This document shows positions 8,572-36,233 of a stretch of 64,000 nt of DNA, one piece after another. Both the position numbers and the translations under genes were made by a program. The notes beneath the pieces are model-generated. The model was not told where the DNA came from. It did no database searches and was given only the letters and a program-made list of their open reading frames with translations. Each line of letters begins with the position of its first letter. Position 1 is the first letter of the stretch. This DNA is from Sedimentitalea nanhaiensis DSM 24252 (lineage in GTDB: Bacteria; Pseudomonadota; Alphaproteobacteria; Rhodobacterales; Rhodobacteraceae). Location: positions 17,774-81,773 of the forward strand of contig NZ_KI421508.1 in NCBI RefSeq assembly GCF_000473225.1. The letters run 5' to 3'.

Positions 8572-9917
8572 CTCTCCGTTCCAGTCTGGTTGAGTGGAGT
8601 GCTTCGACGCAAATCGCCGATCGCCCTCACCGTCGCCCCCTGTTCCGTACGTTCTTGAGCAAGATTTTCATATGTCCCCCTGAGTTTTTCTGATTGCGTG
8701 CTGAATTTGACGAGCCGCGCGCGCAGCTTTGTCAGATCCACTTTTTTGGCCTCGGCAATCTCTGCCTTTGGATTCAGCTTTGCGGCCTTGTTCGCTGTGG
8801 CAACGACCTCGCGCATGCGCTTATCGGCAAAATGGTCTGGCCGATTGGCGGTCGGAATTGCGTTGATCTCTTCCATGCGGCGCTGCGCATCATAGACATT
8901 GAAACGGCGCGGATCGCGACGAATGTCCTCTACCCCGTTTGGCAACACCGTCCGGTCATTGGGCAGCAACGCTGATTTCGCGCCATGCGCCGACATCAGC
9001 ACATCCAGCTCCGCACTTGTAAATGTGCATCCAAGTGACGACACACCAATGCGGGTTGCCCGTCCACCGGGCTTGTCCTTGTCGCGTTCTTCGGGCGGTT
9101 CCGCCCATTTTGTAGTTGTGAAGGACGTTTGTTCCCCAAAGCCATGTGCAATGCCTGAGACGACATTCATCGCCGCCAAGGACTCTGCCGACAATCCACC
9201 CATATAATCCATCACAATCGGTTTCCCGATATTGTGCCAACGGGACAGCGTGCGCACGAGACGCTGCGCATTCACCGGCCCAAGAGCTTTGGACATCGAT
9301 GCCCGCACCCAGAGATTGTCATAAGGCAGATCCGACAGGTTCGGCATCATCTTCGATTGGAAGCTCTCATCCATAAAGTCCGTCAGCCGCGCGGCCACGA
9401 GATAGTCTATCGCGATTGACTTTCCGCCTTCTGAATCAAGCGCGCGCCGCAACAGCAAACAGGCGTCATGGTCGATCGCCTGCCAGCCTTCAAAACTGGG
9501 ATCGGCAAGATAATGCGACGGTGACAAGACGGCACTGACGCCATGTTTAACGGCACACCGCGCAATGGCCCCATAGATATCGGTCGGGTGACGGTCCCGA
9601 AACACATCTGGCGCAAGCGGTACGCCCCGTGTCTCAGGTGCCCATGGGGCGCTCGAGGCCAGTCCTGCACATTTGCGTCGCGCAGAGAGCTCGATGGTGC
9701 GCGGATCAAGGACTATCTCTGCACCAAGGCCCTGCAGAACCTGAATAATGTCTTCCTGAAAGCCGATTTTCGAACCATCCAGCACAAAGCGCTTGCTCTT
9801 GATCACGCCCGCAGCGGCCAGTTCAGCGACCTTTCGGTAACTCGTTTCCCCCAGGCGGATGTAATGCGCCACAGGTTGAAAGACGGAAGCTTGCTTTGGA
9901 AATGCGATAACGCTCAT
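8568..9917 (-). CDS. 449-residue protein of unknown function leading the Xre/RES operon
   Basis: I do not recognise this protein. It alternates predicted strands and helices (IVLDPRTIELS; SAVLSPSHYL; SIAIDYLVAARL; KPIVMDYMGGLSAESLAAM; VSGIAHGFGEQ), a rhythm that suggests a TIM-barrel-like enzyme of the kind seen in tRNA-guanine-transglycosylase relatives; this is a guess. The last 90 residues are charged and helical. There is no signal peptide or membrane segment. It is the first gene of a unit overlapping the antitoxin by 4 bases, so it may be a third component of this system or a cargo gene under the same control. Confidence 0.75.
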   Translation of the reverse strand: MSVIAFPKQASVFQPVAHYIRLGETSYRKVAELAAAGVIKSKRFVLDGSKIGFQEDIIQVLQGLGAEIVLDPRTIELSARRKCAGLASSAPWAPETRGVPLAPDVFRDRHPTDIYGAIARCAVKHGVSAVLSPSHYLADPSFEGWQAIDHDACLLLRRALDSEGGKSIAIDYLVAARLTDFMDESFQSKMMPNLSDLPYDNLWVRASMSKALGPVNAQRLVRTLSRWHNIGKPIVMDYMGGLSAESLAAMNVVSGIAHGFGEQTSFTTTKWAEPPEERDKDKPGGRATRIGVSSLGCTFTSAELDVLMSAHGAKSALLPNDRTVLPNGVEDIRRDPRRFNVYDAQRRMEEINAIPTANRPDHFADKRMREVVATANKAAKLNPKAEIAEAKKVDLTKLRARLVKFSTQSEKLRGTYENLAQERTEQGATVRAIGDLRRSTPLNQTGTER

Positions 9918-20958: not shown

Positions 20959-22263
20959 ATGTACACCCACAGCGATTTGGCCCAATTGCAGGCGCAATCC
21001 CTGAAAATGCAGGGCTGGATTCGGCAGCAGACCTATTCACCCGAGTTGGAAAAGACGCTGCGCCGCTTTTCCAGCTGGGAAGTGGCCGAGCTGATCTTCC
21101 GGGTCAATCAATCTACTTTGCGAGGGCGGCTGGCCGCAGACCCCAGCCTGCCCCAGGGATTGGTCGAGGAAGAGGGGCGCCAGCGATGGTACAGCCTGGA
21201 CGAAATCAACGAGATTCGCCGCCGTCTCAAGGTCAACCGCAAATCGCTGATGCCGCCCCGCCCCTCTGGCAAGCGGGCGATTCGTGCTGCCATTGCCAAT
21301 TTCAAGGGGGGGGCCGGAAAATCCACCGTGGCCTTGCACTTTGCGCATGCGGCGGCGTTGGATGGGTATCGTGTGCTGTGCGTGGACTTTGATCCGCAGG
21401 CCACGTTGAGCCACTCAATGGGCCTGAGTGACGTTGCCGAGGAATATACCGTCTGGGGTATCATGGCGCGGGACCTGATTGCCGAGACCGAGCGCATGAA
21501 CACCGCCGCGCAGGGGGCGGAAAGTGGCACCGCCCTGCCCCGCCGCCGCCTGCCGCCGTCTGTCACGGGCATGGGGCTGGCAGAATTGCGCAACTCGGAT
21601 TTCATCAAATCGACCAGTTGGTCAACCATAGACGTGATCCCCAGCTGTGCCAACGCGGCCTTCGTCGAATTCGCAAGTGCACAATATCGCCATCTGAACC
21701 CGGAATGGTCCTTTTTTGCCGCTGTTTCCAGGTTTCTGGATAGCCTGCCGGACGATGCCTATGACATGATCATCTTCGACTGCCCCCCGGCCATCGGGTA
21801 TCAGTCGATGAATGCCGTGTTTGCCGCCGACGTCCTCTATATCCCCTCGGGGCCCGGCTATTGGGAATACGATTCGACCACATCCTTTATTGGCCAGTTA
21901 TCCGAGGCGCTCGAGGATTTATCCAGATTTTCCAATGCTGTCCCGGCGGGGACGATGCGGTTGCCCAAGGCATTCTGCGACATCCGCTTTCTGCTGACAC
22001 GCTATGAGGCGTCAAACGATCTGCACCGTGCGATGCGCTCAGCCTTTGGCAAGGTGTTTGGGGACAGAGTGGCGGAACACCCGATCGAAATGACCCGGGC
22101 CGTCGAACAATCCGGACGGTTCCTCAGTTCGATTTACGAAACGGATTATCGCGAGATGACACGAGAAACCTGGCGGCGGGCTCGGGCGTCTTTTGACGGT
22201 GCCTACGGCGAATTTCGGGACAACCTGCTCGCTGCCTGGGATGAACTGGAGGCCACAGAATGA
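20959..22263 (+). CDS. parA: ParA-type partition ATPase
   Basis: The 434-residue protein has an N-terminal DNA-binding part with a MerR-like helix-turn-helix (about 38-92), a deviant Walker A KGGAGKS at 116-122, CVDFDPQATLSHSMG (Walker A') and IIFDCPPAIGY (Walker B). This is the long ParA type of alphaproteobacterial plasmids, which also binds its own operator. It moves the ParB-bound plasmid over the nucleoid. An AGGAGGCAGG tract precedes the ATG. The stop overlaps parB by 4 bases. Confidence 0.95.
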   Translation: MYTHSDLAQLQAQSLKMQGWIRQQTYSPELEKTLRRFSSWEVAELIFRVNQSTLRGRLAADPSLPQGLVEEEGRQRWYSLDEINEIRRRLKVNRKSLMPPRPSGKRAIRAAIANFKGGAGKSTVALHFAHAAALDGYRVLCVDFDPQATLSHSMGLSDVAEEYTVWGIMARDLIAETERMNTAAQGAESGTALPRRRLPPSVTGMGLAELRNSDFIKSTSWSTIDVIPSCANAAFVEFASAQYRHLNPEWSFFAAVSRFLDSLPDDAYDMIIFDCPPAIGYQSMNAVFAADVLYIPSGPGYWEYDSTTSFIGQLSEALEDLSRFSNAVPAGTMRLPKAFCDIRFLLTRYEASNDLHRAMRSAFGKVFGDRVAEHPIEMTRAVEQSGRFLSSIYETDYREMTRETWRRARASFDGAYGEFRDNLLAAWDELEATE

Positions 22264-23345
22264 GCAAGCGACGCGTATTTGACATCGAATTCCCCGACGT
22301 CGACCCCCCTGAACCCATCGCATCCGAATCTTCTGTTCCGGCGGCAGACCCGCGGCGTGGCCCCATGGCGTCCGCAATCGCAGAAAACGCCGATGCGCTG
22401 CGTGAACGCGAGACGCTTGAGGCTCGGATCCGGGCCGAGAATGACCATCTGGCGCATGAGCATGTGCGCTTGAAAAAGGCCGGTCTGATCACCGACCTGA
22501 TCCCGATAGAATCGATAAAAACAAGCAAGCTGACGCGGGATCGTAGGGCCGGGCGCGACGACGAGTTGGACGAGCTCAAGGAATCGATCCGTGCTGTAGG
22601 TCTGTCCAACCCGATCCGAGTAGAGGCGTTGGGGCAGGGATCCTACGAGTTGATCCAGGGCTATCGCCGGCTGGCGGCTTTCCGCGAGCTTTTTGAAGAG
22701 ACGGCTGATGCGGCCTATGCAAACATTCCTGCGGGTTTGACCGCCCGTGGCGAAGAACTGGAACTTCTCTATCGGCGCATGGTTGACGAGAACCTGGTGC
22801 GTCGGGATATTTCCTTTGCTGAAATGGCGCAGTTGGTGCGGGCCTATGCGGATGACCCGGAAACGGAGGCGGTCGACCTGGATGCCGCGTTGACCGCGCT
22901 GTTCGGGTCGGTGTCGCGCCAAAAGCGGAGCTACATTAAGCATTTTGTCACGGTTCTGGACGCATTTGGCCCGCGCTTGAAGTTCCCGGAGGCGATTCCA
23001 CGGGCGCTGGGTTTGCAATTGGAGAAGCGGATAAGTCACGAACGAGGGGCGGCGGCACGCATGGCTGCGGCCCTGACGGCAGCCATGGCGGCCACGCCCG
23101 AGGCCGAATTGGAGGTGCTTCGGGACCTTTCCGTGCCCCCGCGAGAGCCCAGAGTGGTTTCGCCGAAACAGGCAGCACGGGCCGCCGCGAAAACGACGTT
23201 TCGGCAGAACGTACGCGGAGGCAGTGTGCGCTGTGCGGCGGCGGAAGGGCGGGTCGAATTGAGGATGAACCGGGACTTCTCGAACATGGACCGGCATAGG
23301 CTGGAAGCTGCAGTGGCCGCATTTTTCCAAGCGCTGGAAGAGTAG
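22260..23345 (+). CDS. parB: ParB-type centromere-binding protein
   Basis: The 361-residue protein contains the ParB N-terminal nuclease-like domain (DELDELKESIRAVGLSNPIRVEALGQGSYELIQGYRRLAAF, about 100-142), the helix-turn-helix region around residue 175-225 and a C-terminal dimerisation domain. It binds the partition site and stimulates ParA. The ATGA overlap with parA shows a coupled operon. A perfect hairpin terminator that may double as a binding site follows. Confidence 0.93.
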   Translation: MSKRRVFDIEFPDVDPPEPIASESSVPAADPRRGPMASAIAENADALRERETLEARIRAENDHLAHEHVRLKKAGLITDLIPIESIKTSKLTRDRRAGRDDELDELKESIRAVGLSNPIRVEALGQGSYELIQGYRRLAAFRELFEETADAAYANIPAGLTARGEELELLYRRMVDENLVRRDISFAEMAQLVRAYADDPETEAVDLDAALTALFGSVSRQKRSYIKHFVTVLDAFGPRLKFPEAIPRALGLQLEKRISHERGAAARMAAALTAAMAATPEAELEVLRDLSVPPREPRVVSPKQAARAAAKTTFRQNVRGGSVRCAAAEGRVELRMNRDFSNMDRHRLEAAVAAFFQALEE

Positions 23346-23401: not shown

Positions 23402-24690
23402 GCTGCCGGTCTACGGGCACGCGGCAGGGCAAAATTCGTGACCTTTGTGACCGATCGCTTCTGGTCTGAGAGGGGAACCTGATGGCTCAAATGTAAATCC
23501 TTCTTCTGTGTGAGGGGCATTGGACGCAGACACCCGATGCTTCTGGCGTCTTTATTGCAGGGATCGGTGCCTATGGATCACGGCGCTGCCATTGGAATGT
23601 GGACCGTGAACCGGCGTTCCGCACACTTTCAAACTCTTCAGGTTCGGCCGCGCCTTGGCATGATTGGCAAAGGAGCGGCTGACATTTCCAGCCAGAGAAT
23701 TCGATGGGCTGACCGAAAGGGCAGAGGTCATGCCCTGTGGCGGGGCAAGGTCGGCGATATGGAGACCGATCAATTCCGGCGAAACGGGCAGGGGTCCTTT
23801 GTGTTCTGGAAAGGCTGGTCCTCCTGACAGCGCGACACCGGCGGGATTGCCACGAGTTGCTCACCACCCCGATCATCCGCCAGGCGCTGACGGTCGTCCT
23901 TCCCGAGTACGACGAGCTGGTCCCGTTGTTGGTGACGCCCGTGCGCCCCAGTCTGCACGCCTTGGCACAGGGTTTTCGGTTGTCGGCTTTTGCATTGACG
24001 GTGGAGATCGGTCGGATCGTCGAGAATCCCTTGGCACGGCCATCGCCCTGTTGCTCGCCACCGACGCAGGCGGGCAGGAGGCGTTCAGATCATGGCCGCT
24101 CTCGTTGACGCGGCCATCGTCGCACGGTTCTGGCACGCTCAGCGCAACGAGAGAGAGCGCCGCAACGCAAAAAAGCCGCGAGGCGACGCCGGTGTCATAA
24201 ATTGCGACTCACCCGGTTTCACAACCGCCGTTACAGAATCTCGTGCACTCCGGTCAGTTTTTTAGGCCGTGCATGAAACTCATGAATTTCGGTGTTTGGA
24301 CAAATGAAACATGAGCTACGTCCTTGCTGCTGAGCGTATCCCCTTTATGTCCGATAAGGCAAGATTATAGGATATCTTAGAGATCGGCAAACAGCGGCGG
24401 TTTTGAATCAATATACATATAAAAGCGCCGCATCGGGGGCTGGGACATGACCCCCAAGAGATTGCATTGTCTCAAAAGCTGTGACGGAGAATCGGAAAAT
24501 TCGCCAGGTGCATGAGGTACAACCAGGCAGAGGTTCCCTCGGTCGGTCAAGATTTCGGGTGTGGGCACCGTTAAGTCAGTGCGCTGATGTGAAATGGGGC
24601 CACATGATCAAATAGACCTCTGCATGATGAGAGGATTCCCATGGTTTGTTTCGTTTGGTATGGTTTTGGAGAAGTTTCCGGGGGATTTTG
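23402..24690. other. Gene-poor region with no recognisable gene
   Basis: Several frames stay open between 23510 and 24200 because of the GC content, but none has natural amino-acid composition throughout or family features, and several overlap on both strands. A fragment LTTPIIRQALTVVLPEYDEL near 23850-23910 may be a relic of a lost gene. From 24270 to 24690 the sequence is less GC-rich and noncoding. One short frame with a good ribosome-binding site is listed separately. Confidence 0.5.
24092..24265 (+). CDS. Possible 57-residue protein with strong ribosome-binding site
   Basis: AGGAGG lies 9 bases before the ATG. The product MAALVDAAIVARFWHAQRNE continues with a basic stretch and an undistinguished tail. 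The strong ribosome-binding site and the helical basic N-terminus argue for a gene; the tail and decayed surroundings argue against it or for truncation. No family recognised. Confidence 0.3.
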   Translation: MAALVDAAIVARFWHAQRNERERRNAKKPRGDAGVINCDSPGFTTAVTESRALRSVF

Positions 24691-25698
24691 ATGGATCTGT
24701 TCTTGCGAGAAGCGACGGATCGGATCGGGGCAGAAGATGCTCTGGCCAAGATTGATGCGTTGATGGATTGGCGGTCGTTTTCACCCATCCTCAAGCGTGG
24801 TCTTGGGCGATCCGGGTTCGGCCCACGAGGGTATGATGCACTGGTCCTGTTCAAGTGCCTGTTGATTGGTCAATGGCACGGTCTTAGCGACCCGAAGCTG
24901 GAACGCGCACTGAAGGTTCGTCTGGATTTCATGATCTTTTGCGGGCCTGATCTGCATGCTGCAGTACCGGATGAGACGACCCATTGCCGCTTTCGCAACG
25001 CTTTGGTGAAGGGCGGTGTTTATGACGACCTTCTGGCCGAAGTCTGCCGCCAGATCGAAGATCACGGGCTGAAACTCAAGGAGGCTGAGGCCGCGATTAT
25101 CGACGCGACTTTGGTAGAAAGCGCAGCGCGGCCCCGTACGCATATAGACGCCCCTGAAGATCGTGCCGAGGGCGAGGCATCGGATGATCCGCAGATGCAT
25201 TTCAGCGCCGATCCCGATGCACGTTGGGTGAAGAAGGGCTCGAAAAGCACGCTTGGTTACAAAGCCTTCGCCCGCACCGACGAGGAAGGCTTTGTCGATC
25301 GTATTCACACCAAGCCCGCCAACTGCGCCGAAAGCCCGGAGTTTGGGCACATGATTGAAGGCGCAAAGGCCCAGCGTGTGCTTGCGGACAAGGCCTACGC
25401 ATCCAGGGCCAACCGTGCCATCCTACGCGGCCAACACCGCGACGGGATCATGAGGAAGGCTGCTCGTAATCGCCCGCTGCGGGCCTCCGAAAAGCGCTTC
25501 AACAAAATGATCTCCAAACGCCGGTTTCGGGTGGAGCAATGTTTCGGAACCATGAAGCGCCTCTTTGGGCTGCACCGCGCCCGCTACTTTGGCGTCGACA
25601 AAACCCATGCCCAACTGGCGATGGCGGCGATCGGGCAAAACCTGCTCAAGGCTGCAAACAAGATCACCCTCAACCGGCAAACCCTCGCAATCGCATAA
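24691..25698 (+). CDS. IS5-family transposase, apparently intact
   Basis: The 335-residue protein has the DDE features of IS5-type enzymes: the N-terminal domain YDALVLFKCLLIGQWHGLSD, PDETTHCRFRN, the first Asp region AAIIDATLVES, the second in VLADKAYASRANR, and the Glu region RRFRVEQCFGTMKRLFGLHRARY. No interruption is seen. The frame is open to 24646, so a start there (MFRLVWF) is also possible. A hairpin follows the stop. I could not fix the terminal inverted repeats by eye. Confidence 0.9.
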   Translation: MDLFLREATDRIGAEDALAKIDALMDWRSFSPILKRGLGRSGFGPRGYDALVLFKCLLIGQWHGLSDPKLERALKVRLDFMIFCGPDLHAAVPDETTHCRFRNALVKGGVYDDLLAEVCRQIEDHGLKLKEAEAAIIDATLVESAARPRTHIDAPEDRAEGEASDDPQMHFSADPDARWVKKGSKSTLGYKAFARTDEEGFVDRIHTKPANCAESPEFGHMIEGAKAQRVLADKAYASRANRAILRGQHRDGIMRKAARNRPLRASEKRFNKMISKRRFRVEQCFGTMKRLFGLHRARYFGVDKTHAQLAMAAIGQNLLKAANKITLNRQTLAIA

Positions 25699-25720
25699 CC
25701 GAACCCCTCAAACGCTCTGT

Positions 25721-25742
25721 GTCCGCTGAAAAATCAGCGGAC
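25721..25742. terminator. Perfect hairpin after the IS5 transposase
   Basis: GTCCGCTGA and TCAGCGGAC pair perfectly around AAAA, 23 bases after the transposase stop, with a short A/T-rich flank. It probably ends the transposase mRNA or blocks read-through at the element's edge. Confidence 0.6.
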
Positions 25743-25778
25743 CAAAACGAGTGAGCACAGTCCTGAAACCACAAAAAA

Positions 25779-26327
25779 ATGACCCGTTACGCAGACGTCT
25801 TTCAAAGCGAAAACCTCACCGCTCTATCACCGCTTCGTTTCCCGTCGGACGTGATCGCCTGGGCGGTCTGGCTGTACTTCGGGTTTCCCCTCAGTATGCG
25901 GATGGTTGAGGGCTTGTCTGCAGAACGCGGTATCGCGGTTTCACATCAAACAGTCCGGGCGTTACTTTGCCGCCGACAGGCGCCTGATGCGCGAACTTAC
26001 AGAGCGGCAAGGGTCGGTTCCACGAGTCATGATCACCGACAAATTGCGGTCATACGCAGCGGCGAAACGGCAGATCATGCCCGGCGTCGAGCATAGATTT
26101 CACAAAAGGTCCGAACAATCGGTCTGGAAATTCTCACCAGCCAACACGGCGACGAGAACGGGGGGAGTGAATAAATTTGAACCGCCCGGCCATTTGCAGC
26201 GATTTTTTCTTTCCACGATCCGATGGCCAACCTGTTCTGTCTCCTGCGCCACGAAATGCCATCAACAGACTTCCGCGAAATGAGATCGCTGCTCATTCAA
26301 ACCTGGCGCGATATCGCTCACGTTTAA
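25779..26327 (+). pseudogene. Broken IS6-family transposase
   Basis: The first part reads RFPSDVIAWAVWLYFGFPLSMRMVEGLSAERGIAVSHQTVR, the N-terminal helix-turn-helix of IS6 transposases. It is joined, after a deletion and frame change, to the C-terminal part RQGSVPRVMITDKLRSYAAAKR and PGVEHRFHKR; further shifts follow, and the frame that ends at 26327 reads MPSTDFREMRSLLIQTWRDI. At least two frameshifts and the loss of the central catalytic block show it is inactive. Confidence 0.88.
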
Positions 26328-26463: not shown

Positions 26464-28830
26464 ATGTCTTCCAATGGCCACCGCCACCATCACAAACACG
26501 CCGACGACCACTCAGACGAACAGGAACATTCTCATGGAGAGGGTGTCGCGTGTTGCGGTGCCGGAGCGAACGCAGGGCCGGCACAACCCATTCCCTCGAA
26601 CGGACGTAGCTTTCAGGTCTCCGGGCTCGATTGCGCCGAAGAGGTGGCAATCCTGAACAGGGTTGTTGGTCCAAAGGCCGGCGGAGCCGAACACCTGGCG
26701 TTCGACGTCATCAACGGGCGAATGACCCTCCTCGACAGCGCCGAAAAGATTTCGGACAGCGAAGTCGCGCAGTTGGTGGCAACGACCGGCATGAACGCAA
26801 AGCCATGGGATGCCGACAACGCCGCAGAGGACCAGGCGGCGCATCTGGCGCGTCAAAGGCTCTTCACCTCGTTGAGCGGCGGCTTCTGGGCGGCGGGTTT
26901 CCTTTTCCACATCGTCGAGACCGGCATGGGTGGCGCACTCGGGCTCTTTGCGGGGCATGGCGAGGCGCCGATGCCCATGGCCGAAGCGGGGCTCTTCGCC
27001 GTTGCGATCATATTCGGTGTCTGGCTGGTGACGCCCAAGGCCTGGTCCTCGGCGCGGCGGTTTTCGCCCGACATGAACCTGCTGATGGTAGTGGCTGTGG
27101 CGGGTGCCATCGGTCTCGGCGAGTTTTTCGAGGCGGCGACGGTGGCCTTCTTCTTCTCGCTGTCGCTATTTCTGGAAAGCTGGAGCGTGGGACGGGCGCG
27201 CAACGCGGTTTCCACGCTGCTCGACCTCGCCCCGCCCACGGCGCGGGTGATCCGACCGGATGGCACCGAGGCGGATGTTCCGGCGGCAGAGGTCGCCGTG
27301 GACGATCGCTTCATAGTGCGCGGCGGCGACCGTATCCCGCTCGACGGCGCGGTCGTGGACGGGGCAGGGGCCGTCGATCAGGCCCCGATCACCGGGGAAA
27401 GCGCGCTGGTGCCCAAGGAAGCCGGCGACGAGGTTTATGCCGGCACGATCAATGGCGAGGGCACGCTGACGGTGCGCGCAACCAAGCCCGCGTCGGACAC
27501 GGTGCTTGCGAAGATCATTCGCATGGTGGGTGATGCTCACGCACGCCGCGCGCCGGTCGAGCAGTGGGTCGCGAAGTTTGCGCGTATCTACACGCCCATC
27601 GTCATGGTTCTGGCGGCCGCCATCGCTTTGCTGCCGCCCCTGCTTCTGGGCGGGGCCTGGGATTACTGGTTCTACAATGCGCTGGTGCTTCTGGTCATCG
27701 CCTGCCCCTGTGCCCTTGTCATCTCGACGCCGGTTTCCATTGTGGCGGCGCTGACGGCTTCGGCGCGGGCAGGGGTGCTCATCAAGGGCGGCGCCTATGT
27801 CGAAGCGCCAGGGCGCACCACCGCACTGGCGATGGACAAGACCGGAACGATCACCATGGGCGAGCCGGAGGTGGCGGCAGTTCACCCACTGGGCGGCGTC
27901 TCTGCGCGCGATCTCATGACGCTGGCAGCAGGTCTGGAAGCGCGGTCCTCGCACCCGCTGGCACGCGCCATCCTCGCGCGCGCGCAAGCCGATAATGTTT
28001 CCGTGTCTGCGGCAGAGGACACACGCACCGTGCCGGGGCGTGGGCTGGAAGGGCGCGTCGGGGGGCGCGCGATCTGGCTGGGCTCGGATCGGTTTGCCGA
28101 GGAGAAAGGGTTCGGCAGCGCCATTCCGACGGACCTTCGCGACCGGATCGAAGAGGCCGGCAGCACCCTCGTGGCCGTGGGTGACGACACCGGCCTAACC
28201 GGCGTTCTGGAGCTTCGCGACCGCATCCGCCCCGATGCAAAGGGGGTCGTTGCCCGGCTGCATGCGCAGGGTGTGAAGACGATCGTGATGCTGACGGGCG
28301 ACAACGAACGCACCGCGCGTGCCGTGGCGGCCGAGGTCGGCATCGACGAAGTGCGCGCCGAACTGCTGCCAGAGGACAAGGTGACGGCCATCGAGGAACT
28401 GGCCGCAACACACGACATGGTGGCAATGATCGGTGACGGTGTGAACGACGCCCCCGCCATGGCGCGCGCGCATTACGCCATTGCCATGGGGGCTGTCGGA
28501 TCGGACGCGGCCATCGAGACGGCGGACATCGCGCTGATGACCGACGACATCGGCAAGGTGCCGTGGCTCATCGGCCACTCGCGCCGGACCATGACGATCA
28601 TCCATCAGAACATCGGGATCTCTCTGGCGACCAAGGCGCTGTTCGTCGGGTTGACGGCGTTCGGCATGGCTTCGATGTGGGGCGCGATTGCCGCCGATGT
28701 GGGGGTGTCCCTGCTGGTGGTGGCCAATGCGCTGCGGCTTCTGAACGGCTACCGGAGTAAGACCGGGCGTTCGGGCGGCGAACCGGTTGGCGAGCAGACG
28801 GCCAAGGGGGCGTTGGCGCATGGTCATTGA
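26464..28830 (+). CDS. zntA: Zn/Cd/Pb-exporting P1B-type ATPase
   Basis: The 788-residue protein starts with a His-rich metal-binding tail (GHRHHHKHADDH) and a CC pair at 30-31, then a ferredoxin-like metal domain with the unusual GLDCAEE (54-60). It has ITGES, the transmembrane CPC at 414-416, the phosphorylated Asp in DKTGT (458-462), SSHPLA and GDGVNDAP. CPC with this N-terminus marks the zinc/cadmium/lead group. It pumps these ions out of the cytoplasm. A MerR-type promoter lies upstream and a zinc-ribbon gene downstream. Confidence 0.93.
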   Translation: MSSNGHRHHHKHADDHSDEQEHSHGEGVACCGAGANAGPAQPIPSNGRSFQVSGLDCAEEVAILNRVVGPKAGGAEHLAFDVINGRMTLLDSAEKISDSEVAQLVATTGMNAKPWDADNAAEDQAAHLARQRLFTSLSGGFWAAGFLFHIVETGMGGALGLFAGHGEAPMPMAEAGLFAVAIIFGVWLVTPKAWSSARRFSPDMNLLMVVAVAGAIGLGEFFEAATVAFFFSLSLFLESWSVGRARNAVSTLLDLAPPTARVIRPDGTEADVPAAEVAVDDRFIVRGGDRIPLDGAVVDGAGAVDQAPITGESALVPKEAGDEVYAGTINGEGTLTVRATKPASDTVLAKIIRMVGDAHARRAPVEQWVAKFARIYTPIVMVLAAAIALLPPLLLGGAWDYWFYNALVLLVIACPCALVISTPVSIVAALTASARAGVLIKGGAYVEAPGRTTALAMDKTGTITMGEPEVAAVHPLGGVSARDLMTLAAGLEARSSHPLARAILARAQADNVSVSAAEDTRTVPGRGLEGRVGGRAIWLGSDRFAEEKGFGSAIPTDLRDRIEEAGSTLVAVGDDTGLTGVLELRDRIRPDAKGVVARLHAQGVKTIVMLTGDNERTARAVAAEVGIDEVRAELLPEDKVTAIEELAATHDMVAMIGDGVNDAPAMARAHYAIAMGAVGSDAAIETADIALMTDDIGKVPWLIGHSRRTMTIIHQNIGISLATKALFVGLTAFGMASMWGAIAADVGVSLLVVANALRLLNGYRSKTGRSGGEPVGEQTAKGALAHGH

Positions 28831-29787: not shown

Positions 29788-30546
29788 TCAGGCAAAACGG
29801 CGGCGCAGCGCGACGTTGATGCCTTCGATTGCGATGACCATGAGGACAACGGCAATCGTGACGCTGGCCGCCTTGTCATACTGGAAAGAGCGCACATAGG
29901 TCTGGATGTAAAATCCGATCCCGCCCGCACCGACAATCCCGAGGATCAGCGACTCTCGCAGGTTCAATTCGAACCGGAAGATCGTGTCGCGGGCGACGAC
30001 CGGCGCCATTTGCGGCCAGATCGCATGTCTGAGCCGCACGAGCGGTCCGGCGCCCGCGCTTTCCAGTGCGGCGATAGGCGCGCGGGACACGCCGTCGATC
30101 GCCTCGGCGTAAAACTTGGCGAGCATCCCCGTCGCATGAAACGCGATCGCGATGATACCGGGCAGCGGCCCGAGCCCGACAGCGCCCACCATCAGCATGG
30201 CCACCAGGATCAGCGGAATCGCCCGTATGAAGGCAAGCAGCATTCGGATCGGCCGGAACACCGCACGCGATACCATCGTCTCGGACGCAAGGATGCCCAG
30301 CGGGATCGACAGGACCGTCGCACCAAGGGAGCCCAGGATCGCGATCCTCAGCGTTTCTGCACTGCCTTTCATGATCTCGGCCATCACCGTAGGGTCTGGT
30401 GGAAACATCCGGCCGAGGAAACCGGCGATCCGCGGGCCGGCGGACATGAGACGCGATAACTCGACGTCGGTGGTGACGAAGGACCACAGGACCGCGCCGG
30501 CGATCAGCGCGCTGGCCGCGAATCCGCCAAACTCTCGTAGCCGCAT
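29788..30546 (-). CDS. phnE: PhnE-like ABC transporter permease
   Basis: The 252-residue protein has six predicted membrane spans and the permease EAA-like loop (ESAGAGPLVRLRHAIWPQMAP). Its ending GIVGAGGIGFYIQTYVRSFQYDKAASV is typical of PhnE. The ATG at 30546 overlaps the last base of the phnC stop; the frame is open upstream but that part is antisense-like and unrelated. It is the third gene after phnD and phnC. The true cargo of this importer is uncertain because the operon begins with a di-haem peroxidase and is likely under MntR-type control. Confidence 0.85.
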   Translation of the reverse strand: MRLREFGGFAASALIAGAVLWSFVTTDVELSRLMSAGPRIAGFLGRMFPPDPTVMAEIMKGSAETLRIAILGSLGATVLSIPLGILASETMVSRAVFRPIRMLLAFIRAIPLILVAMLMVGAVGLGPLPGIIAIAFHATGMLAKFYAEAIDGVSRAPIAALESAGAGPLVRLRHAIWPQMAPVVARDTIFRFELNLRESLILGIVGAGGIGFYIQTYVRSFQYDKAASVTIAVVLMVIAIEGINVALRRRFA

Positions 30547-31328
30547 CAGGACACCGCCCGGAGCCCGATACCGGGCATTGGCTTTGGGTCCCTGTAGAGA
30601 TCCGCTGTTGCGTCCTCGTTCAGCTCGGATGTCGGCACATCGAAGACGATCCGGCCGCCACGAATGCCGATAATACGCTGCGCGAAACGCCGCGCCAGGT
30701 CGGGCTGGTGCGACGAGAACATTGCCGTCGCTCCGCGTGCCCGCGCAGCCGCGGTCAGCAGCGCCAGTATTTCGCCGGCGCGGGCGGGGTCGAGATTGCT
30801 CACTGGCTCGTCGGCGAGGATCAGACGCGGTTCCTGGGCCAGACACCGCGCGATGGCCACACGCTGCCGCTGACCGCCGCTGAGGCTGTCGACCCTGCGT
30901 TCGGCAAGGTCTGCAATGCCGCAATCGGCAAGTGCCGTGCGCGCAATCCCCAGATCATGCGCGGTCGGGGATCCCAGCAGGGCCCGCAGCGGCGACATGC
31001 GTCCCAGGCGACCGTTGAGGACGTTACGCAGAACCGTGGAGCGTTCGACCAATGCAAACTCCTGAAACACGAAACCGGTATCCGGACGGCGCGCGCGCGG
31101 CGGCGGGTGGTCGGGGTCGAGCGGCGCACCCAGAACCGAGACCCGTCCGGCCCAGCCCTGGAGCCTGCCGTCGAGCAGCGCCAGAAGCGTCGTTTTTCCC
31201 GCCCCGGACGGGCCGAGCAAAGCGACGCTTTCGCCCGCCGGGACGAACAGCGACACCCGGTCCAACGCCGGGAGATCCGTGCCCAGATGGGCAAAGCTCA
31301 AGTCATCGATTTGGGCGGCGATGCTCAT
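30546..31328 (-). CDS. phnC: PhnC-like ABC transporter ATPase
   Basis: The 260-residue ATPase has Walker A GPSGAGKT (39-46), Q-loop FVFQEFALVERSTVLRNVLNGRLG (typical of PhnC), signature LSGGQRQRVAIAR and Walker B LILADEPVSNLD. It powers the PhnE permease. Its start overlaps phnD by 4 bases and its end touches phnE, so the three are one unit. Confidence 0.88.
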   Translation of the reverse strand: MSIAAQIDDLSFAHLGTDLPALDRVSLFVPAGESVALLGPSGAGKTTLLALLDGRLQGWAGRVSVLGAPLDPDHPPPRARRPDTGFVFQEFALVERSTVLRNVLNGRLGRMSPLRALLGSPTAHDLGIARTALADCGIADLAERRVDSLSGGQRQRVAIARCLAQEPRLILADEPVSNLDPARAGEILALLTAAARARGATAMFSSHQPDLARRFAQRIIGIRGGRIVFDVPTSELNEDATADLYRDPKPMPGIGLRAVS

Positions 31329-32200
31329 TCCAAAAGCCCGTATCGCCGCGCGATGTCGCGCACGCCGTCATAGGCGGCGGGGTCGGCCCTGACATAGCCG
31401 TCCGGGCCATAGAGATAGCGCAGCTTTTCGCGGTTATCCGGCGCGTTGAGCTTTAGCATCGCGTCGATAAACCGGTCCTGCACGTCAGCGTCAAGCCCCG
31501 GTCGCGCGATCACCAGATGGCTCGGGATCGGCGCGCTTTCCGCGATCCATTTCACCTCTGCCTGTTGCTGTGGTGTCAGAAGCAGATCGGCGTACTGGCT
31601 GGCGCCTGCGGCATCGACCAAGCCTTCGGCCATGGCCTGCATGGCCTGCTGGTAGCCACCCGCGAAGAAGATGCGACCAAAGAACGCCTCTGCGGTACCG
31701 GGCGCCTCGATCAGCCCGGCCTGCACGAATTCGGCAAGCGGGTAGAGATATCCCGATTCCGAGATCGGATCGGCGAAGGCGATGTCGCGCCCGCGCAGGT
31801 CGGCGAGCGACCGGATGCCGCTGTCACGGCGCACGTAGATGCGGCCCGTGTAACTCGGTGCATCGCGGTAGACCTCGGACAGGAGAGGCACGGCACCGAT
31901 CTCTGCCTCGGCCAGAACGAAGGGCAGGGCACCCATGAAGGAGATATCTGCGTCGCCGTTTCTCAAAGCTTCGACCGCCGCCGCATGGTCGATGGTGACG
32001 AACCCTTCGACGGGGAGGCCGATCTCGCTGGACAGCCAGCCGGCGATGGCTTCGATGTCGCCCAGCAACTTCTCCGGGTTCTCCTGCGGAATGAAGGCGA
32101 GCCGCAACCTGTCATTCTGCGCAGCGAGCGGGGACGCCAGAGATATCGCGCTCGCGCCGGCCAAACGAAGGACGGTTCTGCGGTTCAGGTGCATCGCCAT
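31325..32200 (-). CDS. phnD: PhnD-like substrate-binding protein
   Basis: The 291-residue protein (start MAMHLNRRTVLRLAGASAIS) has a Tat-type signal with RR, then the PhnD family core: RLRLAFIPQENPEKLLGD, DISFMGALPFVLAEAE and DLRGRDIAFADPISESGYLYP. Members bind phosphonates, phosphite or other oxyanions, but the family is broad. The start is placed at the ATG that overlaps the preceding stop. Its place after a di-haem peroxidase suggests its ligand may be a metal-linked compound rather than a phosphonate. Confidence 0.82.
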   Translation of the reverse strand: MAMHLNRRTVLRLAGASAISLASPLAAQNDRLRLAFIPQENPEKLLGDIEAIAGWLSSEIGLPVEGFVTIDHAAAVEALRNGDADISFMGALPFVLAEAEIGAVPLLSEVYRDAPSYTGRIYVRRDSGIRSLADLRGRDIAFADPISESGYLYPLAEFVQAGLIEAPGTAEAFFGRIFFAGGYQQAMQAMAEGLVDAAGASQYADLLLTPQQQAEVKWIAESAPIPSHLVIARPGLDADVQDRFIDAMLKLNAPDNREKLRYLYGPDGYVRADPAAYDGVRDIARRYGLLE

Positions 32201-34080
32201 CAAAAGGCCCTCTCTTCGATATCGGCGGTTTCGGCCTTGAATGCAGTCCAGCTTGCTTCGGCGGCTGTCCAATCCTCGTCACGCACGGCGGCGCTGACCT
32301 CGGCCAGCTTCTCTGCCAGCGCGTAGACGCCGGGCCGTGCGGCGAGGTTGGACATGGTGCTGGCGTCAGCCGAAAGGTCCGCAGCCACGGTGTCCGTCAG
32401 GAGCAGGATGTGCCGCGCATCCCGCCGGGGCAGCAATGTGTCGAGCGTCGAGGCGAAGGTGATCAATTCGGAGAAGGCCAGTCGGAAGGCGGTGTTCTCG
32501 GCATCGAAGGCCTCATAGGGTTCGTCCGCCGCACCCACGGTTTCCAGATAGGCGGTCAGGTCGGCCCGTTCCGCCCCGGTCAGCCCAAGCGATTTCGTCT
32601 CGTCGAACCAGTCTACGACTGCCGCCAGGGTCGGCAGCGATCCGTCATGGAAATAAGGCGCGGTATAGGCCGTCCCGAGCAGCGTCGGCGTGTCCAGCGC
32701 ACCGGCGCGGGCACCTTCATAGGCCGGCGCGACGGAGCCGATGTTGTGCGCCTGCCGGTCCAGGAAGTTGGCGTCCGAAACGTGGCAACTGGCGCAGGAG
32801 CGGTCGCCGAGACTGGCGAAGGGCGTGTTGAAGATCGCTTCGCCGCGCCGCGCAGCCTCGGGTGCGGCTTCGGTCAGCCTGCCATCGGTTGTCAGCATGG
32901 AATTGGGCAGGAAGTCGAATTCGAGCATGTAGGCGACCAGTGCGTCCATCATGAAAGGCGTCGGCTCGTCGCCGCCGAATTCATTGACGATGACGTTGCG
33001 GGTGAAGTCGCGCAGGGAAGCGAAACGGCCGTCGCGCCCGTACGGCCCGGTGAAGCGCAATCCGCGAAGGCTTGGGATGTCGAGAGGGTCGTTACGCCGG
33101 TCGTTGAAGATTGGGTTGAAAAAGGCACCGTCGACGTCGATCGCGCCCGGTTGATGGCTGGCGCCCGGAATGAACAGCCGTTGGTTGACGTCCGAGCGGT
33201 TGTGACAGGTCGAGCAGGCGAGCCCGAGATCGCGCGCCGGGCCGCCGAAGATTTGCGCGCTGTCGAACAGCATGTCGCCGTAAGCCACGAGCGGCAGGCC
33301 GGTCTCGTCGATGCCCTGTTCCTCGAAGTTGAGGACGAGACGCGGCAGCGGATCCTGATCGAAGATGTCGGAGCCCGGTGGCAGGCTTGGCGGCACCTCG
33401 ATGGCACGACCGCTGAGCACGGCAGTTTCGGGCAGGGCGCTCAGCGTCCGACGCGGAGCGAAATCGTCAATGAGATAGTTCCCCGCAATATAGCCGGAAA
33501 TGACAGCGCGCGCGGCTGCCATCGTATCGCGGTCAGCGGATGTGACGCCCGCGCCCAGGACCCCGGCGGACCCCGTACTGCTGTTCAGCTCCAGCCAGGC
33601 AAGGCCGATTTGCTTTGCGGCGGCTGGCTCCGCCGCGGCGATGCCGTCCGCAAACGCGCGATAGAGTTCGCGAGATGTCCGTACGGTCTGCTGCGCACGC
33701 GCCGGGTCTTCGGCAGCTATAGCACGGTCCAGTTCCTCTTCGATCCTGAGCGCAATGAGCCGCGTCGCCTCGGCAAAGACCGCCTGCCGGTCTTCATCTG
33801 CGATCGCGTCCAGAAGCCGCGCAGGGTCGATATCGCTCACGCGATCCAGCCACGCCAAGGCGCCGATGGACAATTCCGAACCCCGATAGGGTTCCGTCCA
33901 GGCGATCTCGATATCGTTCCAGGGCAGAGGCTCGAGATTTCCAAGAAAGAGCGTCAACCGGTAGGCCGCCGCCTCGGGAAGCCAGGGGGTCTCCTTGGCA
34001 GGTGTCGCGGCTACAGATCCGGACAGGACGAGCGCACTTGCGAACGAGACCATCAGCATCTTTAGGAAATCTCGTGTCAC
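32200..34080 (-). CDS. MauG/cytochrome c peroxidase-like di-haem protein with long N-terminal extension
   Basis: From GTG 34080 (GGAGG 5 bases upstream) the protein has 626 residues with a signal peptide. Two haem motifs, CSTCH (289-293) and CASCH (429-433), and the intervening PSLRGLRFTGPYGRDGRFASL and later TPTLLGTAYTAPYFHDGSLPTL segments are those of bacterial di-haem peroxidases. About 240 residues before the first haem are not part of the usual family. It acts in the periplasm on peroxide or as an oxidase of a protein or ligand. It leads the operon with phnDCE and is divergent from mntR. Confidence 0.85.
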   Translation of the reverse strand: MTRDFLKMLMVSFASALVLSGSVAATPAKETPWLPEAAAYRLTLFLGNLEPLPWNDIEIAWTEPYRGSELSIGALAWLDRVSDIDPARLLDAIADEDRQAVFAEATRLIALRIEEELDRAIAAEDPARAQQTVRTSRELYRAFADGIAAAEPAAAKQIGLAWLELNSSTGSAGVLGAGVTSADRDTMAAARAVISGYIAGNYLIDDFAPRRTLSALPETAVLSGRAIEVPPSLPPGSDIFDQDPLPRLVLNFEEQGIDETGLPLVAYGDMLFDSAQIFGGPARDLGLACSTCHNRSDVNQRLFIPGASHQPGAIDVDGAFFNPIFNDRRNDPLDIPSLRGLRFTGPYGRDGRFASLRDFTRNVIVNEFGGDEPTPFMMDALVAYMLEFDFLPNSMLTTDGRLTEAAPEAARRGEAIFNTPFASLGDRSCASCHVSDANFLDRQAHNIGSVAPAYEGARAGALDTPTLLGTAYTAPYFHDGSLPTLAAVVDWFDETKSLGLTGAERADLTAYLETVGAADEPYEAFDAENTAFRLAFSELITFASTLDTLLPRRDARHILLLTDTVAADLSADASTMSNLAARPGVYALAEKLAEVSAAVRDEDWTAAEASWTAFKAETADIEERAF

Positions 34081-34097
34081 TGCGGCCTCCAGACCCA

Positions 34098-34119
34098 AAA
34101 GTTAGACATGGCTAACTTT
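34098..34119. promoter_or_regulatory. Inverted repeat between mntR and the di-haem peroxidase gene
   Basis: AAAGTTAG-N6-CTAACTTT is a perfect 8+8 inverted repeat 17 bases upstream of the peroxidase start and 55 bases upstream of mntR. Its form resembles DtxR/MntR-type sites. The DtxR-family gene lies beside it, so it is very probably that regulator's operator for both directions. Confidence 0.7.
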
Positions 34120-34174
34120 CCTACCCAAAGCAAACAAGTTGTCAACCCCGCTGTTTACCTGCAAAGTCACAAGT

Positions 34175-34645
34175 ATGACAAAGCTGCAATCACATGGGCG
34201 TGAGCCGTTTGAAACTGTCGACAGGGCTCCCGAGGCCCAGGCCGAGGGGTTTGCAACCGTGCGCCAGGCGCATGAGAGTGAAATGGCGGAGGATTACGTC
34301 GAGTTGATCGCAGAGCTGATCGAGACGCGCGGAGAGGCCAGACCGGTCGAGATTGCAGAACGACTTGGCGTGAAACCGCCAACCGTGACCAAGAACATTT
34401 CGCGGCTCAAGGCCGCTGGCCTTGTACGGAGAGAGCCCTACCGGGCGGTTTTCCTCACCGATGCAGGCCAGAAGCTGGCAGAGGCCTGTCGGCAGCGCCA
34501 CAGGATCGTCGTCGCGTTTCTTTGCAGTCTCGGGATCGACGGAGAAACCGCGGAACGCGATGCGGAAGGGATCGAGCATCACGTCAGCGAAACGACGCTG
34601 GAGGCATTCGAACACGCGCTGATGCAATCCCGGAGCCACAAATAA
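34175..34645 (+). CDS. mntR: MntR-like DtxR-family metalloregulator
   Basis: From ATG 34175 the protein has 156 residues, close to the length of E. coli MntR. It has a winged helix (EIAERLGVKPPTVTKNISRLKAAGLV, RREPYRAVFLTDAGQKLAE) and a dimerisation domain with metal-ligand residues (RHRIVVAFLCSLGI, ERDAEGIEHHVSE). It should bind DNA when loaded with Mn(II) or Fe(II). A start at 34139 (TTG) would add 12 unconvincing residues. It is divergent from the peroxidase-phnDCE operon. Confidence 0.85.
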   Translation: MTKLQSHGREPFETVDRAPEAQAEGFATVRQAHESEMAEDYVELIAELIETRGEARPVEIAERLGVKPPTVTKNISRLKAAGLVRREPYRAVFLTDAGQKLAEACRQRHRIVVAFLCSLGIDGETAERDAEGIEHHVSETTLEAFEHALMQSRSHK

Positions 34646-34892: not shown

Positions 34893-35273
34893 TTAGAGCG
34901 CGTAGACGATCGTGGTGATCGTGATCATGATCGTCGAGAACATGGCCAGCACGCCCAGAGCGAGCGTCCGGCCCATGTCGCGATTTGGCTTTTCCACTTT
35001 TAAGCGCAACTCCTCTGCGGTTTCCGGAAACTCGAGCGCCGCCGCATTCGAACCACGCCGCAACTCGTATTGGGTGTTCCATCGGCGCACTTCCGCCGCG
35101 TTCCAGCCGTTCAGCACGAGGATGATCGCCACAATCAAAACCATCGAGGACGGGACCCAGATCGTATAGCCACCGATGGTCTCGTCAGCCAAGGCGCTGA
35201 GTCCGGTACCGTTGCTTACCGTTTGGTCGGACGCATAGCCAAACGGATCGTATTGGATGAGATACGTGATCAT
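34893..35273 (-). CDS. C-terminal fragment of a CtaG-type cytochrome oxidase assembly protein
   Basis: The 126-residue frame has two membrane spans. ALADETIGGYTIWVPSSMVLIVAIILVL matches the late conserved loop and helix of caa3-type CtaG proteins (usually L-x-D-Q-Q-x-x-G-x-I-M-W-V-P). The N-terminal five or so spans are missing and a stop lies upstream, so it is probably a truncated relic, though a ribosome-binding site (AGGAGCC) precedes the ATG. It lies near SCO and DUF411 genes, which fits a former copper/oxidase assembly cluster. 34646-34892 has no gene. Confidence 0.5.
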   Translation of the reverse strand: MITYLIQYDPFGYASDQTVSNGTGLSALADETIGGYTIWVPSSMVLIVAIILVLNGWNAAEVRRWNTQYELRRGSNAAALEFPETAEELRLKVEKPNRDMGRTLALGVLAMFSTIMITITTIVYAL

Positions 35274-35380
35274 TGGCTCCTGTCCTTTATGGTCCGCGCG
35301 CTGTCCGCCGATTTAGGTGACAATCCAGATGTTCCGGCGGTGCCACTGCGGGCCAAGCACGGATCCGTGGTCATCATGAG

Positions 35381-35662
35381 TTATTTACCCCGGATCCACA
35401 TCGGAAAGAGGTTTTCGTAAAACCTTGAGACTGAGTGCCCGGACTGACCGGCGGGCGCGATGAAATAGGAACCGCGTTCGTCCGAAAGCGAAACGACCGC
35501 CTGAGAATTGGTGCCCGCGTTAGAGACAAACGGCCGAGCACCGTCCGATGCAAACACGGTCGACATCTGAGTAAAGGGATCGCCGGCGTTGGTGCTTCGA
35601 GAGACAGCAAGCTGCTCGCCATCCCGCTCGATCTGATCGGCGATCGCGGCACGTTCAAAATG
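35381..35662 (-). pseudogene. C-terminal fragment of a penicillin-acylase family protein
   Basis: The minus strand reads ERAAIADQIERDGEQLAVSR ... FASDGARPFVSNAGTNSQAV and ends SYFIAPAGQSGHSVSRFYEN-LFPMW. The GQSGHxxSxxYxxxxPxW ending is the C-terminus of the Ntn-hydrolase penicillin/acyl-homoserine lactone acylases. No start codon and no catalytic serine region remain; a stop lies directly upstream. 35663-35774 holds nothing. Confidence 0.65.
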
Positions 35663-35774
35663 TGCTCCTCACCCCGCCGCCCCGGTCGCAGTCAGCGATC
35701 CGGCGGCCAGGCTTGCAAGAAAGCCAAGCGCTATGGGGCAGAGGGGTTCCAATTGCTAAGGTCTTGCCGGGAGT

Positions 35775-36233
35775 TCAATCAGAGCCGAGGTAGCTGGTAT
35801 AGACCTCGGTCGAGCCGTCTTGGCGGATCAGGAAGACATCGTAAGCCTCTCGGTCGTCCTGCGGTCCCATGCCGGGCGACCCGTAGGGCATTCCCGGCAC
35901 CGCCAGGCCCACCGCGTCCGGTCGGTCCTCCAGCAGGCGCTGGATGTCAGCGGCCGGCACGTGGCCCTCGATCACGTAGCCGTCGACCAGAGCGGTATGG
36001 CAGGACACCATGCGTTGTGGCACGCCCTTGTCGAGTTTGAAGCGCACAAGAGAGCCTCCGAACATATCCTCGCCCGTCGGCGCAAAGCCGTTCTCCTCGA
36101 TGTGCTTCATCCAGGACAGGCAACAGCCGCAGCCGCTTGTCTTCCGGACATCGATGGGGATCGCCTCAGCGACAGCTTGCGCCGCGGGAAGCAAGGCCAG
36201 TGCGATGGCAAGGGCGGGAGCATACATTTTCAT
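35775..36233 (-). CDS. DUF411 periplasmic metal-binding protein
   Basis: The 152-residue protein has a signal peptide (MKMYAPALAIALALLPAAQA) and the DUF411 motif KTSGCGCCLSWMKHIEENGF, with later MVSCHTALVDGYVIEGHVPA and VPGMPYGSPGM. DUF411 proteins occur in copper and other metal-resistance clusters and bind metal through the Cys cluster. It follows the M23 peptidase gene by 3 bases, and both follow the SCO gene, so the three are likely co-transcribed for copper handling. Confidence 0.87.
   Translation of the reverse strand: MKMYAPALAIALALLPAAQAVAEAIPIDVRKTSGCGCCLSWMKHIEENGFAPTGEDMFGGSLVRFKLDKGVPQRMVSCHTALVDGYVIEGHVPAADIQRLLEDRPDAVGLAVPGMPYGSPGMGPQDDREAYDVFLIRQDGSTEVYTSYLGSD

Follow-up and report, generated by a model that had tools for sequence, protein, structure and literature searches.

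The described systems closest to this locus in their regulation are the MntR-controlled manganese importers mntH (Nramp) and sitABCD. These are also divergent from mntR, the island Nramp genes and two of three Sit sets share the operator type, and one mntH copy holds the same island position as the five-gene unit reported here. However, the transporter proteins are unrelated, and mntH and sitABCD have no oxidase partner. The substrate-binding protein, ATPase and permease of the unit are homologous to those of PhnCDE, PtxABC and HtxBCDE (importers of phosphonate, phosphite and hypophosphite), from which the unit differs by a replaced oxyanion motif, a di-haem partner and MntR control. Its annotated neighbours include neither C-P lyase genes nor phosphite genes. 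The di-haem protein has two CXXCH haems and a PF03150 region in common with MauG, MbnH and bacterial cytochrome c peroxidases, but carries helical N- and C-terminal extensions and PYGRDGR (73/73 relatives) instead of the FWDGRA-type motif usual in this superfamily. MbnH, too, has a metal-binding protein as its partner. Coupling of an oxidase to a transporter is known from the oxidase-permease iron uptake of Fet3-Ftr1, whereas the five-gene unit combines a haem rather than a copper enzyme with an ABC importer and manganese control. LutA-type lanthanide-linked ABC systems contain a periplasmic-binding protein and a c-type cytochrome in one cluster, a likeness at the level of general description. 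Within the literature searched no description of the system was found, and to that extent the term "undescribed" in an earlier note on this DNA holds.

The window analysed comprises 64,000 nucleotides of Sedimentitalea nanhaiensis DSM 24252. The gene mntR, encoding a Mn-sensing repressor of the DtxR family, occupies 34139-34645 of the forward strand (168 residues from TTG; an in-frame ATG at 34175 gives 156 residues). On the reverse strand follow the genes for a di-haem c-type protein of the oxidase/peroxidase superfamily (32200-34080, 626 residues, GTG start at 34080), a phnD-like substrate-binding protein (31325-32200, 291 residues, twin-arginine motif near the start), a phnC-like ABC ATPase (30546-31328, 260 residues) and a phnE-like permease (29788-30546, 252 residues counted from ATG). 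The di-haem gene and phnD have one base in common (TGATG), as do phnC and phnE (TGATG), and phnD and phnC overlap by four bases. The open reading frame coordinates confirm the operon of overlapping genes proposed earlier and the divergent position of the DtxR/MntR-type gene across the operator.

The MntR passes the NCBIfam equivalog model NF008273 (199.7 bits, cut-off 153) and matches E. coli MntR (2h09) with an E-value of 7.8e-40. The Mn-site ligands, which we take to be D8, E11, H77, E99, E102 and H103 of B. subtilis MntR, are all kept in 77/77 MntRs compared, including the two of the source genome. As judged from sequence, the regulator speaks for manganese rather than iron, since these are the six ligands of a Mn-selective MntR. 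Of the two metals named for the proposed "manganese- or iron-linked" cargo, manganese is therefore preferred. Each of the two MntRs of the source genome lies beside one copy of the five-gene unit, so the sensor looks dedicated to it.

The predicted MntR operator AAAGTTAGACATGGCTAACTTT (34098-34119), a perfect palindrome of 8+8 bases with a 6-base spacer, is located just 5' of the start of the di-haem gene. As the earlier note stated, it is without mismatch, and it is the only match in the window at up to three mismatches (mean of shuffles 0.03). An operator-like site is present in 76/76 mntR-operon spacers scanned, with 12-15 of the 16 half-site bases matched; shuffled spacers score at least 12 in 8/1,520 cases and at least 13 in 1/1,520. 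In the whole genome at three mismatches there are two sites, both at copies of the cluster, and 22 sites for the reversed control pattern. It is therefore the position and conservation of the operator, rather than its rarity, that make the case for it. A promoter scan revealed no sigma-70-like site.

In 198 genomes of the family, 19 strict operator sites are spread over 16 genomes, compared with 12 sites in 9 genomes for the reversed control pattern. Eleven of the 19 are found at the five-gene unit, its remnant or a Sit cluster and the other eight (7 genomes) elsewhere; around four of the latter that were examined, none of 12 window proteins is encoded nearby. Five of the 11 unit carriers in this sample have no strict match, and all 10 carriers re-examined have an operator-like site with 12-15 matches. 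These strict-site counts argue against a general role of the operator as a Mn box.

Conservation of the gene set and the operator had been named as a check, and both are kept. All five genes are present in 68 of 77 related loci, with the same order in 68/68, and seven of the nine incomplete loci run off a contig end. The order also recurs in 10/10 further carrier genomes of the family sample, which may share strains with the 77-locus set. The unit is carried on plasmids of marine bacteria, mostly conjugative or mobilizable. Flanking genes (P-type ATPase, L,D-transpeptidase, DUF411, SCO and M23) were rejected as parts of the system, because they are lost in diverged copies and several recur around Nramp islands. 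Copper and heavy-metal genes are also found in the islands, and the unit may therefore act under metal stress.

MntRs of this clade, with an operator of this type, also stand divergent from the island Nramp, a SitABCD-type transporter, or a multicopper oxidase with a ZIP-like transporter. Nramp is the neighbour in 16 of the 41 MntR places in the 198 genomes, the five-gene unit in 12, the oxidase/ZIP-like pair in 4, and Sit and a truncated remnant of the unit in 3 each; 3 are unassigned. Plasmids of Martelella and Frigidibacter have nine genes including mntR in the same order (60-74% identity) and differ only in the importer, which is the five-gene unit in one and Nramp in the other. The stretch with the unit contains no Nramp, and the stretch with Nramp contains no di-haem/PhnDCE genes. 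Among the MntRs, the sequence from the Martelella copy groups with those from Nramp and oxidase/ZIP islands (local support 0.93) and is nested among them at 0.78, which suggests an exchange of cargo. Occupation of the same MntR/operator slot by Nramp and Sit importers supports the proposed metal-uptake system. The TTAG-type operator is restricted to the two island pairs among 16 mntR-Nramp pairs; the 14 outside islands have no site above 12/16, and some of them have TAGCC-type palindromes. One Sit locus lacks an operator of this type, and three of the six oxidase/ZIP operator sites are identical and come from closely related plasmids. These findings, too, count against a general Mn box. At least three ABC-3 permease matches were found in 8 of the 11 unit carriers; these genomes thus probably encode Sit-type uptake as well, which would make the unit an additional system. 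Nramp occurs in 0/11 carriers and, over the cut-off, in 33/198 genomes, which is not significant (Fisher p 0.22); no significant exclusion of other Mn importers was observed in the 198 genomes.

PhnD belongs to PF12974 (186.8 bits) and its best folds are PtxB, ArrX and PhnD (PtxB-type fold). It passes the broader model of phosphate/phosphite/phosphonate binding proteins (152.4 bits, cut-off 112.05) and remains below the phosphonate model (157.7 vs 261.1 bits). PhnC is also below its phosphonate cut-off (TIGR02315, 213.3 vs 266.1 bits), and PhnE, scored with one extra upstream codon, is above that of the permease (TIGR01097, 233.8 vs 216.7 bits). A cluster A-I Mn/Zn-binding protein of the SitA/PsaA type was considered and rejected on the family and folds of PhnD. 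At E 1e-45, PhnD was found in 2/398 genomes of the phylum, the source genome and one family member, and in no other context.

According to PMC5700983, the oxyanion ligands of this type of binding protein are an STS-H motif plus a Tyr. In 71/71 complete PhnD sequences other residues stand at three of the six oxyanion-ligand positions and at both cap positions, with S-E-S in place of STS and Y in place of H (71/71). Judged from these residues, PhnD is without the phosphonate pocket. The candidate ligands include His72 (codon 31985-31987), Glu148 (31757-31759), Tyr183 (31652-31654) and His228 (31517-31519), all on the reverse strand, and the replacement His2/Glu/Tyr2 set resembles a metal site. 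Its residue types fit the FbpA-type His/Glu/Tyr/Tyr set. In PtxB, the corresponding columns come together around the bound ligand, and the relative HtxB, with another small ligand, has F at the His position (both PMC5700983). Since relatives with other small ligands are also substituted, the pocket changes indicate altered specificity and not metal binding as such. Trp55, Tyr117 and Tyr183 are invariant in 36 aligned sequences. Twin arginines are found near the start in 71/71, and from these invariant residues PhnD is probably exported folded via the Tat route.

The di-haem protein consists of a helical N-terminal domain (residues ~35-223), a di-haem core (~232-525) and a helical C-terminal domain (~531-625); a signal peptide was recognised by eye. 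The core matches PF03150 (41.0 bits, cut-off 25.6). Two CXXCH motifs are present in 73/73 complete relatives; here they are CSTCH (residues 289-293, 33202-33216) and CASCH (residues 429-433, 32782-32796), both on the reverse strand, with Cys, Cys and His invariant across 37 sequences. The Trp between the haem motifs, also usual in the superfamily, is absent from 71/73. The earlier description as "MauG-like" is valid at the superfamily level only: membership in MauG or MbnH was rejected (TIGR03791 and TIGR04039, 39.7 and 44.7 bits, cut-offs 443.85 and 362.85). The long novel N-terminus is real: within residues 1-230 every NCBIfam and Pfam model stays below its cut-off, and the single Pfam match (E 0.077) is at chance level. 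The protein additionally carries a helical C-terminal extension of ~100 residues. The predicted structure (pLDDT 63.6 overall) is confident in the helical parts only and low in the core, and in a Foldseek search nothing reached E 0.001, with generic helical bundles ranking first. Distant relatives (11 matches, 37-48% identity, 10 genomes of the class) are not accompanied by any other gene of the window within the surrounding stretches examined.

Most probably, the five genes form a metal importer repressed by Mn(II)-MntR, in which PhnD, PhnC and PhnE import manganese and the di-haem enzyme oxidises or prepares the cargo; we infer the import role from regulation and slot replacement. At low cellular Mn, MntR would leave the operator and the di-haem/phnDCE operon would be made, as the conserved operator and the sensor suggest. 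The invariant pocket residues suggest that the oxyanion site was turned into a His/Glu/Tyr metal-type site, with which periplasmic PhnD would capture manganese for import by PhnC and PhnE. In the least supported step, the di-haem protein would most likely oxidise Mn(II), or strip or prepare the metal for binding to PhnD. Mn oxidation raises cellular Mn in Pseudomonas putida (PMC3798386). The need for oxidation, and a compound instead of the metal ion as cargo, are the more conjectural parts of the earlier proposal. A more specific version is tentative: under MntR control, the enzyme may oxidise periplasmic Mn(II) or take Mn(III) from ligands, and Tat-exported PhnD may hold Mn(III) in the His2/Glu/Tyr2 pocket derived from the anion site for redox-gated ABC import. 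If so, the multicopper oxidase and ZIP-like transporter linked to MntR would represent a further case of Mn import coupled to an oxidase, independent of the first.

Possible, though doubtful, is direct import of Mn(II) by PhnDCE, with the di-haem protein as a periplasmic peroxidase protecting cells short of Mn-dependent enzymes. The protein belongs to the cytochrome c peroxidase superfamily, a link between Mn uptake and H2O2 defence is established, and His2/Glu could hold Mn(II). The one-base overlap of the di-haem gene with phnD in 67/71 loci and the extensions outside the PF03150 match argue against it, as does the recurrence of an oxidase beside a transporter (the oxidase/ZIP-like operon) behind an MntR and operator of this kind. 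Ferric iron is an unlikely cargo under the same regulation, with Fe(II) oxidised by the di-haem protein and Fe(III) bound by PhnD as in a ferric-binding protein. The pocket residues are invariant and fit the FbpA ferric site in type, and Fe(II) can also be transported by Nramp and Sit importers, but the six MntR ligands point to manganese. It is rather improbable that the di-haem protein builds the ligand site by modifying PhnD post-translationally, by analogy with MbnH, which modifies MbnP, and MauG, which modifies its partner. The similarity to both models, far below cut-off, and the invariant Trp and Tyr residues of PhnD would fit, whereas modified residues are not visible from sequence, the case is one of analogy and PhnD, apparently Tat-exported, would already be folded. 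An ordinary phosphonate/phosphite importer beside mntR by accident is very improbable. It agrees with the PhnE score and with database records, which label the transporter as a phosphonate importer; the loss of the STS-H motif, the PhnD and PhnC scores, the fixed coupling to MntR and operator and the replacement of the unit by Nramp in the slot speak against it. The earlier view of phosphonate as an unlikely cargo is thus supported.

If the proposed manganese import is true, marine bacteria would have another kind of manganese importer, which is plasmid-borne, and many records now labelled "phosphonate transporter" would be corrected. Pairs of oxidase and transporter genes behind a Mn sensor would then also provide a concrete answer to the old question of why bacteria oxidise Mn. 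Furthermore, an anion-binding family may have become metal-binding through few exchanges in a defined pocket.

The mntR gene (34139–34645, + strand) is separated from a leftward operon by a perfect palindrome, AAAGTTAG-N6-CTAACTTT, the predicted MntR operator (34098–34119). The operon encodes a 626-residue di-haem protein (34080–32200), PhnD (32200–31325), PhnC (31328–30546) and PhnE (30546–29788), all on the − strand. One base, within a TGATG junction, belongs to both the di-haem gene and phnD; the overlap is four bases between phnD and phnC, and one base between phnC and phnE. With start codons picked by script, the first junction is found as in the window in 67/71 related loci, the four-base overlap in 59/67 and the one-base overlap in 60/68 (loci from the best 80 of 83 matches). 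Because the junctions are kept across relatives, they point to translational coupling of the oxidase and transporter genes.

A scan of genome contigs yielded 77 loci from the best 80 of 83 matches. Within these, tblastn located MntR in 76, PhnD in 74, PhnC in 73 and PhnE in 70. The complete set of five occurs in 68, with identical order and orientation in each of the 68. An operator-like site (12–15 of 16 half-site matches) occurs in 76/76 spacers scanned from this set. In shuffled spacers the best site reached at least 12 matches in 8 of 1,520 cases and at least 13 in one. The perfect operator and overlapping genes described in the earlier note are present (1–4 bases shared per junction), and the conservation it had proposed as a check is observed. 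Seven of the nine incomplete loci end at a contig edge. Locus L040 has a gap behind a shortened di-haem gene, and the whole unit is found in a plasmid record bearing the same species name. At locus L078, MntR was not found in the 1.6 kb ahead of the di-haem gene.

The MntR of the window passes the curated MntR model in a profile search, and its closest match of solved structure is E. coli MntR. All six residues that bind metal in B. subtilis MntR are present in 77/77 MntR sequences from the best 80 of 83 matches, including both of the host genome. Searches of 198 genomes of the family, with MntR as protein query and with the strict form of the operator, gave 41 MntR places. Twelve adjoin the unit, 16 Nramp, 3 SitABCD-type genes, 3 a di-haem remnant and 4 a multicopper oxidase/ZIP-like operon; 3 are unassigned. 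A TTAG-type operator with 13–15 matches precedes each of the three Nramp genes that lie in islands (L182, L185 and the plasmid locus L194), the Sit sets L142 and L177 (two out of three) and every one of the six oxidase/ZIP sets examined; the other 14 mntR-Nramp pairs have none.

In these oxidase/ZIP sets (L173, L174, L175, L176, L193, L195), a multicopper oxidase of two domains and a ZIP-like transporter form a two-gene operon behind an MntR of the same clade and an operator of the same type. Such operons are common on plasmids of Sulfitobacter and Pseudosulfitobacter. Three of the four from the 198-genome sample were scanned with Pfam. The ZIP match lies under the cut-off (31.6–33.7 vs 35.1 bits), and plasmid records annotate the gene as a metal transporter. 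The pair is possibly a second oxidase-coupled metal importer.

Decayed copies of the unit, with mntR, operator and only ~90 codons of the di-haem gene, are present on some plasmids, at L118 (D. shibae pDSHI01; 8976–9807), L143 (6925–7726), L206 and L207; PhnDCE was not found in the stretches holding these remnants. A second MntR of a unit-carrying genome (G432; L181, 4171–4569) has an in-frame TGA and is accompanied by an operator-like site with 12 matches; no Nramp, Sit or unit gene was found next to it.

Apparent slot replacement is seen most clearly when two plasmids are compared. That of Martelella sp. AD-3 carries, in order, P-type ATPase, methyltransferase, lspA, dsbB, thioredoxin-like, mntR, [di-haem, phnDCE], SCO, PCu(A)C, SCO. 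The Frigidibacter mobilis plasmid has the same order with [Nramp] in place of the bracketed genes. The nine common genes, including mntR, are 60–74% identical, and the bracketed genes of either plasmid were not found in the compared stretch of the other. In a FastTree tree of selected MntRs (18 from loci of the unit), the Martelella MntR shares a clade (local support 0.93) with MntRs from islands that carry Nramp or oxidase/ZIP genes, and is nested inside that clade (0.78). Taken together, the swap and this placement suggest exchange of cargo behind a Mn sensor, and this is the strongest argument for regarding the unit as a putative Mn importer.

PhnD of the window belongs to PF12974; its model (pLDDT 83.8) has PtxB, ArrX, HtxB and PhnD as nearest folds. 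PtxB binds the phosphite oxygens by Y55, Y100, S130, T131, S132 and H160 and is capped by Y208 and D22 (PMC5700983). In an alignment with three PtxB sequences, the equivalents are H72, Y117, S147, E148, S149 and Y183, and the cap positions hold H228 and Q39, each residue being present in 71/71 complete sequences (best 80 of 83 matches). Relative to PtxB, three of the six ligands differ, as do both residues of the cap. The carboxylate amid the anion site and the lost histidine are hard to reconcile with phosphonate binding. Two His, one Glu and two Tyr are a set of the kind seen around Mn or Fe(III). The metal-type pocket is a prediction, because the same positions are altered for other small ligands elsewhere in the fold (PMC5700983). 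A twin-arginine motif lies inside the first 16 residues in 71/71 complete sequences of the same matches (best 80 of 83). This fits export of PhnD as a folded protein, for which the Mn cupin MncA is a precedent. The view of the unit as a metal-uptake system with phosphonate an unlikely cargo is therefore strengthened on both counts, by the Nramp replacement and by the pocket.

The di-haem protein contains a PF03150 region and falls far short of both the MauG and MbnH models. Among 73 complete relatives (loci from the best 80 of 83 matches), all have two CXXCH motifs and 71 lack a Trp between them. Residues 35–223 and 531–625 are predicted mostly as confident helices, the core without confidence. 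E538, D554, H557 and D568, in the helical C-terminal extension (residues 531–625, window 32200–32500), are invariant across 37 sequences and possibly form a metal site.

In the proposed mechanism, MntR-Mn very probably represses the operon, PhnD plausibly captures the metal, judging by its pocket, and PhnCE would import it, by homology. The di-haem protein might oxidise or prepare the metal, as suggested by the coupled genes, by the oxidase/ZIP operon as a parallel and by a report that Mn-oxidising P. putida cells contain more Mn than non-oxidising mutants (PMC3798386). An independent peroxidase is a minority possibility; it would suit a member of the cytochrome c peroxidase superfamily, and the retained junction with phnD speaks against it. 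Fe(III) as cargo would agree with the pocket residues and is improbable in view of the conserved metal ligands of MntR. Slightly less probable still is modification of PhnD by the di-haem protein. Oxidation or preparation of the metal for Mn import is preferred here.

No account of the MntR-linked di-haem/PhnDCE unit was found in the open literature searched (5.39 million papers), including the relevant passages of PMC2631029 and PMC5387054; older work on alphaproteobacterial Mn regulons and MntX could mention it.

The replicon of the window is probably a plasmid, because 20959–22292 shows ~75–77% DNA identity to AAA-ATPase/ParB partition genes from plasmids of the Roseobacter group. By eye, one transposase-like gene of 350 aa and fragments of similar type were recognised at 24646–26283, just beyond the metal island and adjoining the P-type ATPase gene that lies at 26464. 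Compared with the island at L119, the window (34893–36233) has a CtaG-like gene cut to a 126-aa remnant and ~0.5 kb in place of penicillin acylase, lnt, lspA and ZIP genes ahead of DUF411, which indicates a deletion of approximately 4–5 kb.

The di-haem protein is matched by 44 plasmid records (19 typed conjugative, 18 mobilizable), 43 of them across at least 80% of its length; Roseibium, Labrenzia, Leisingera, Ruegeria and Martelella are among the matches at 55–75% identity. All five genes are present in the three records opened (Roseibium, Martelella, Ruegeria). The host genome has two copies of the unit with island neighbours, on this replicon and on a 4.4-Mb contig; between the two copies the proteins of the unit are 86–91% identical. 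A full-length di-haem gene is present in 11 of the 198 sampled family genomes, and the ten carriers besides the host all have the five genes and an operator-like site. With 11 carriers in 198 genomes, the unit is therefore accessory in the family.
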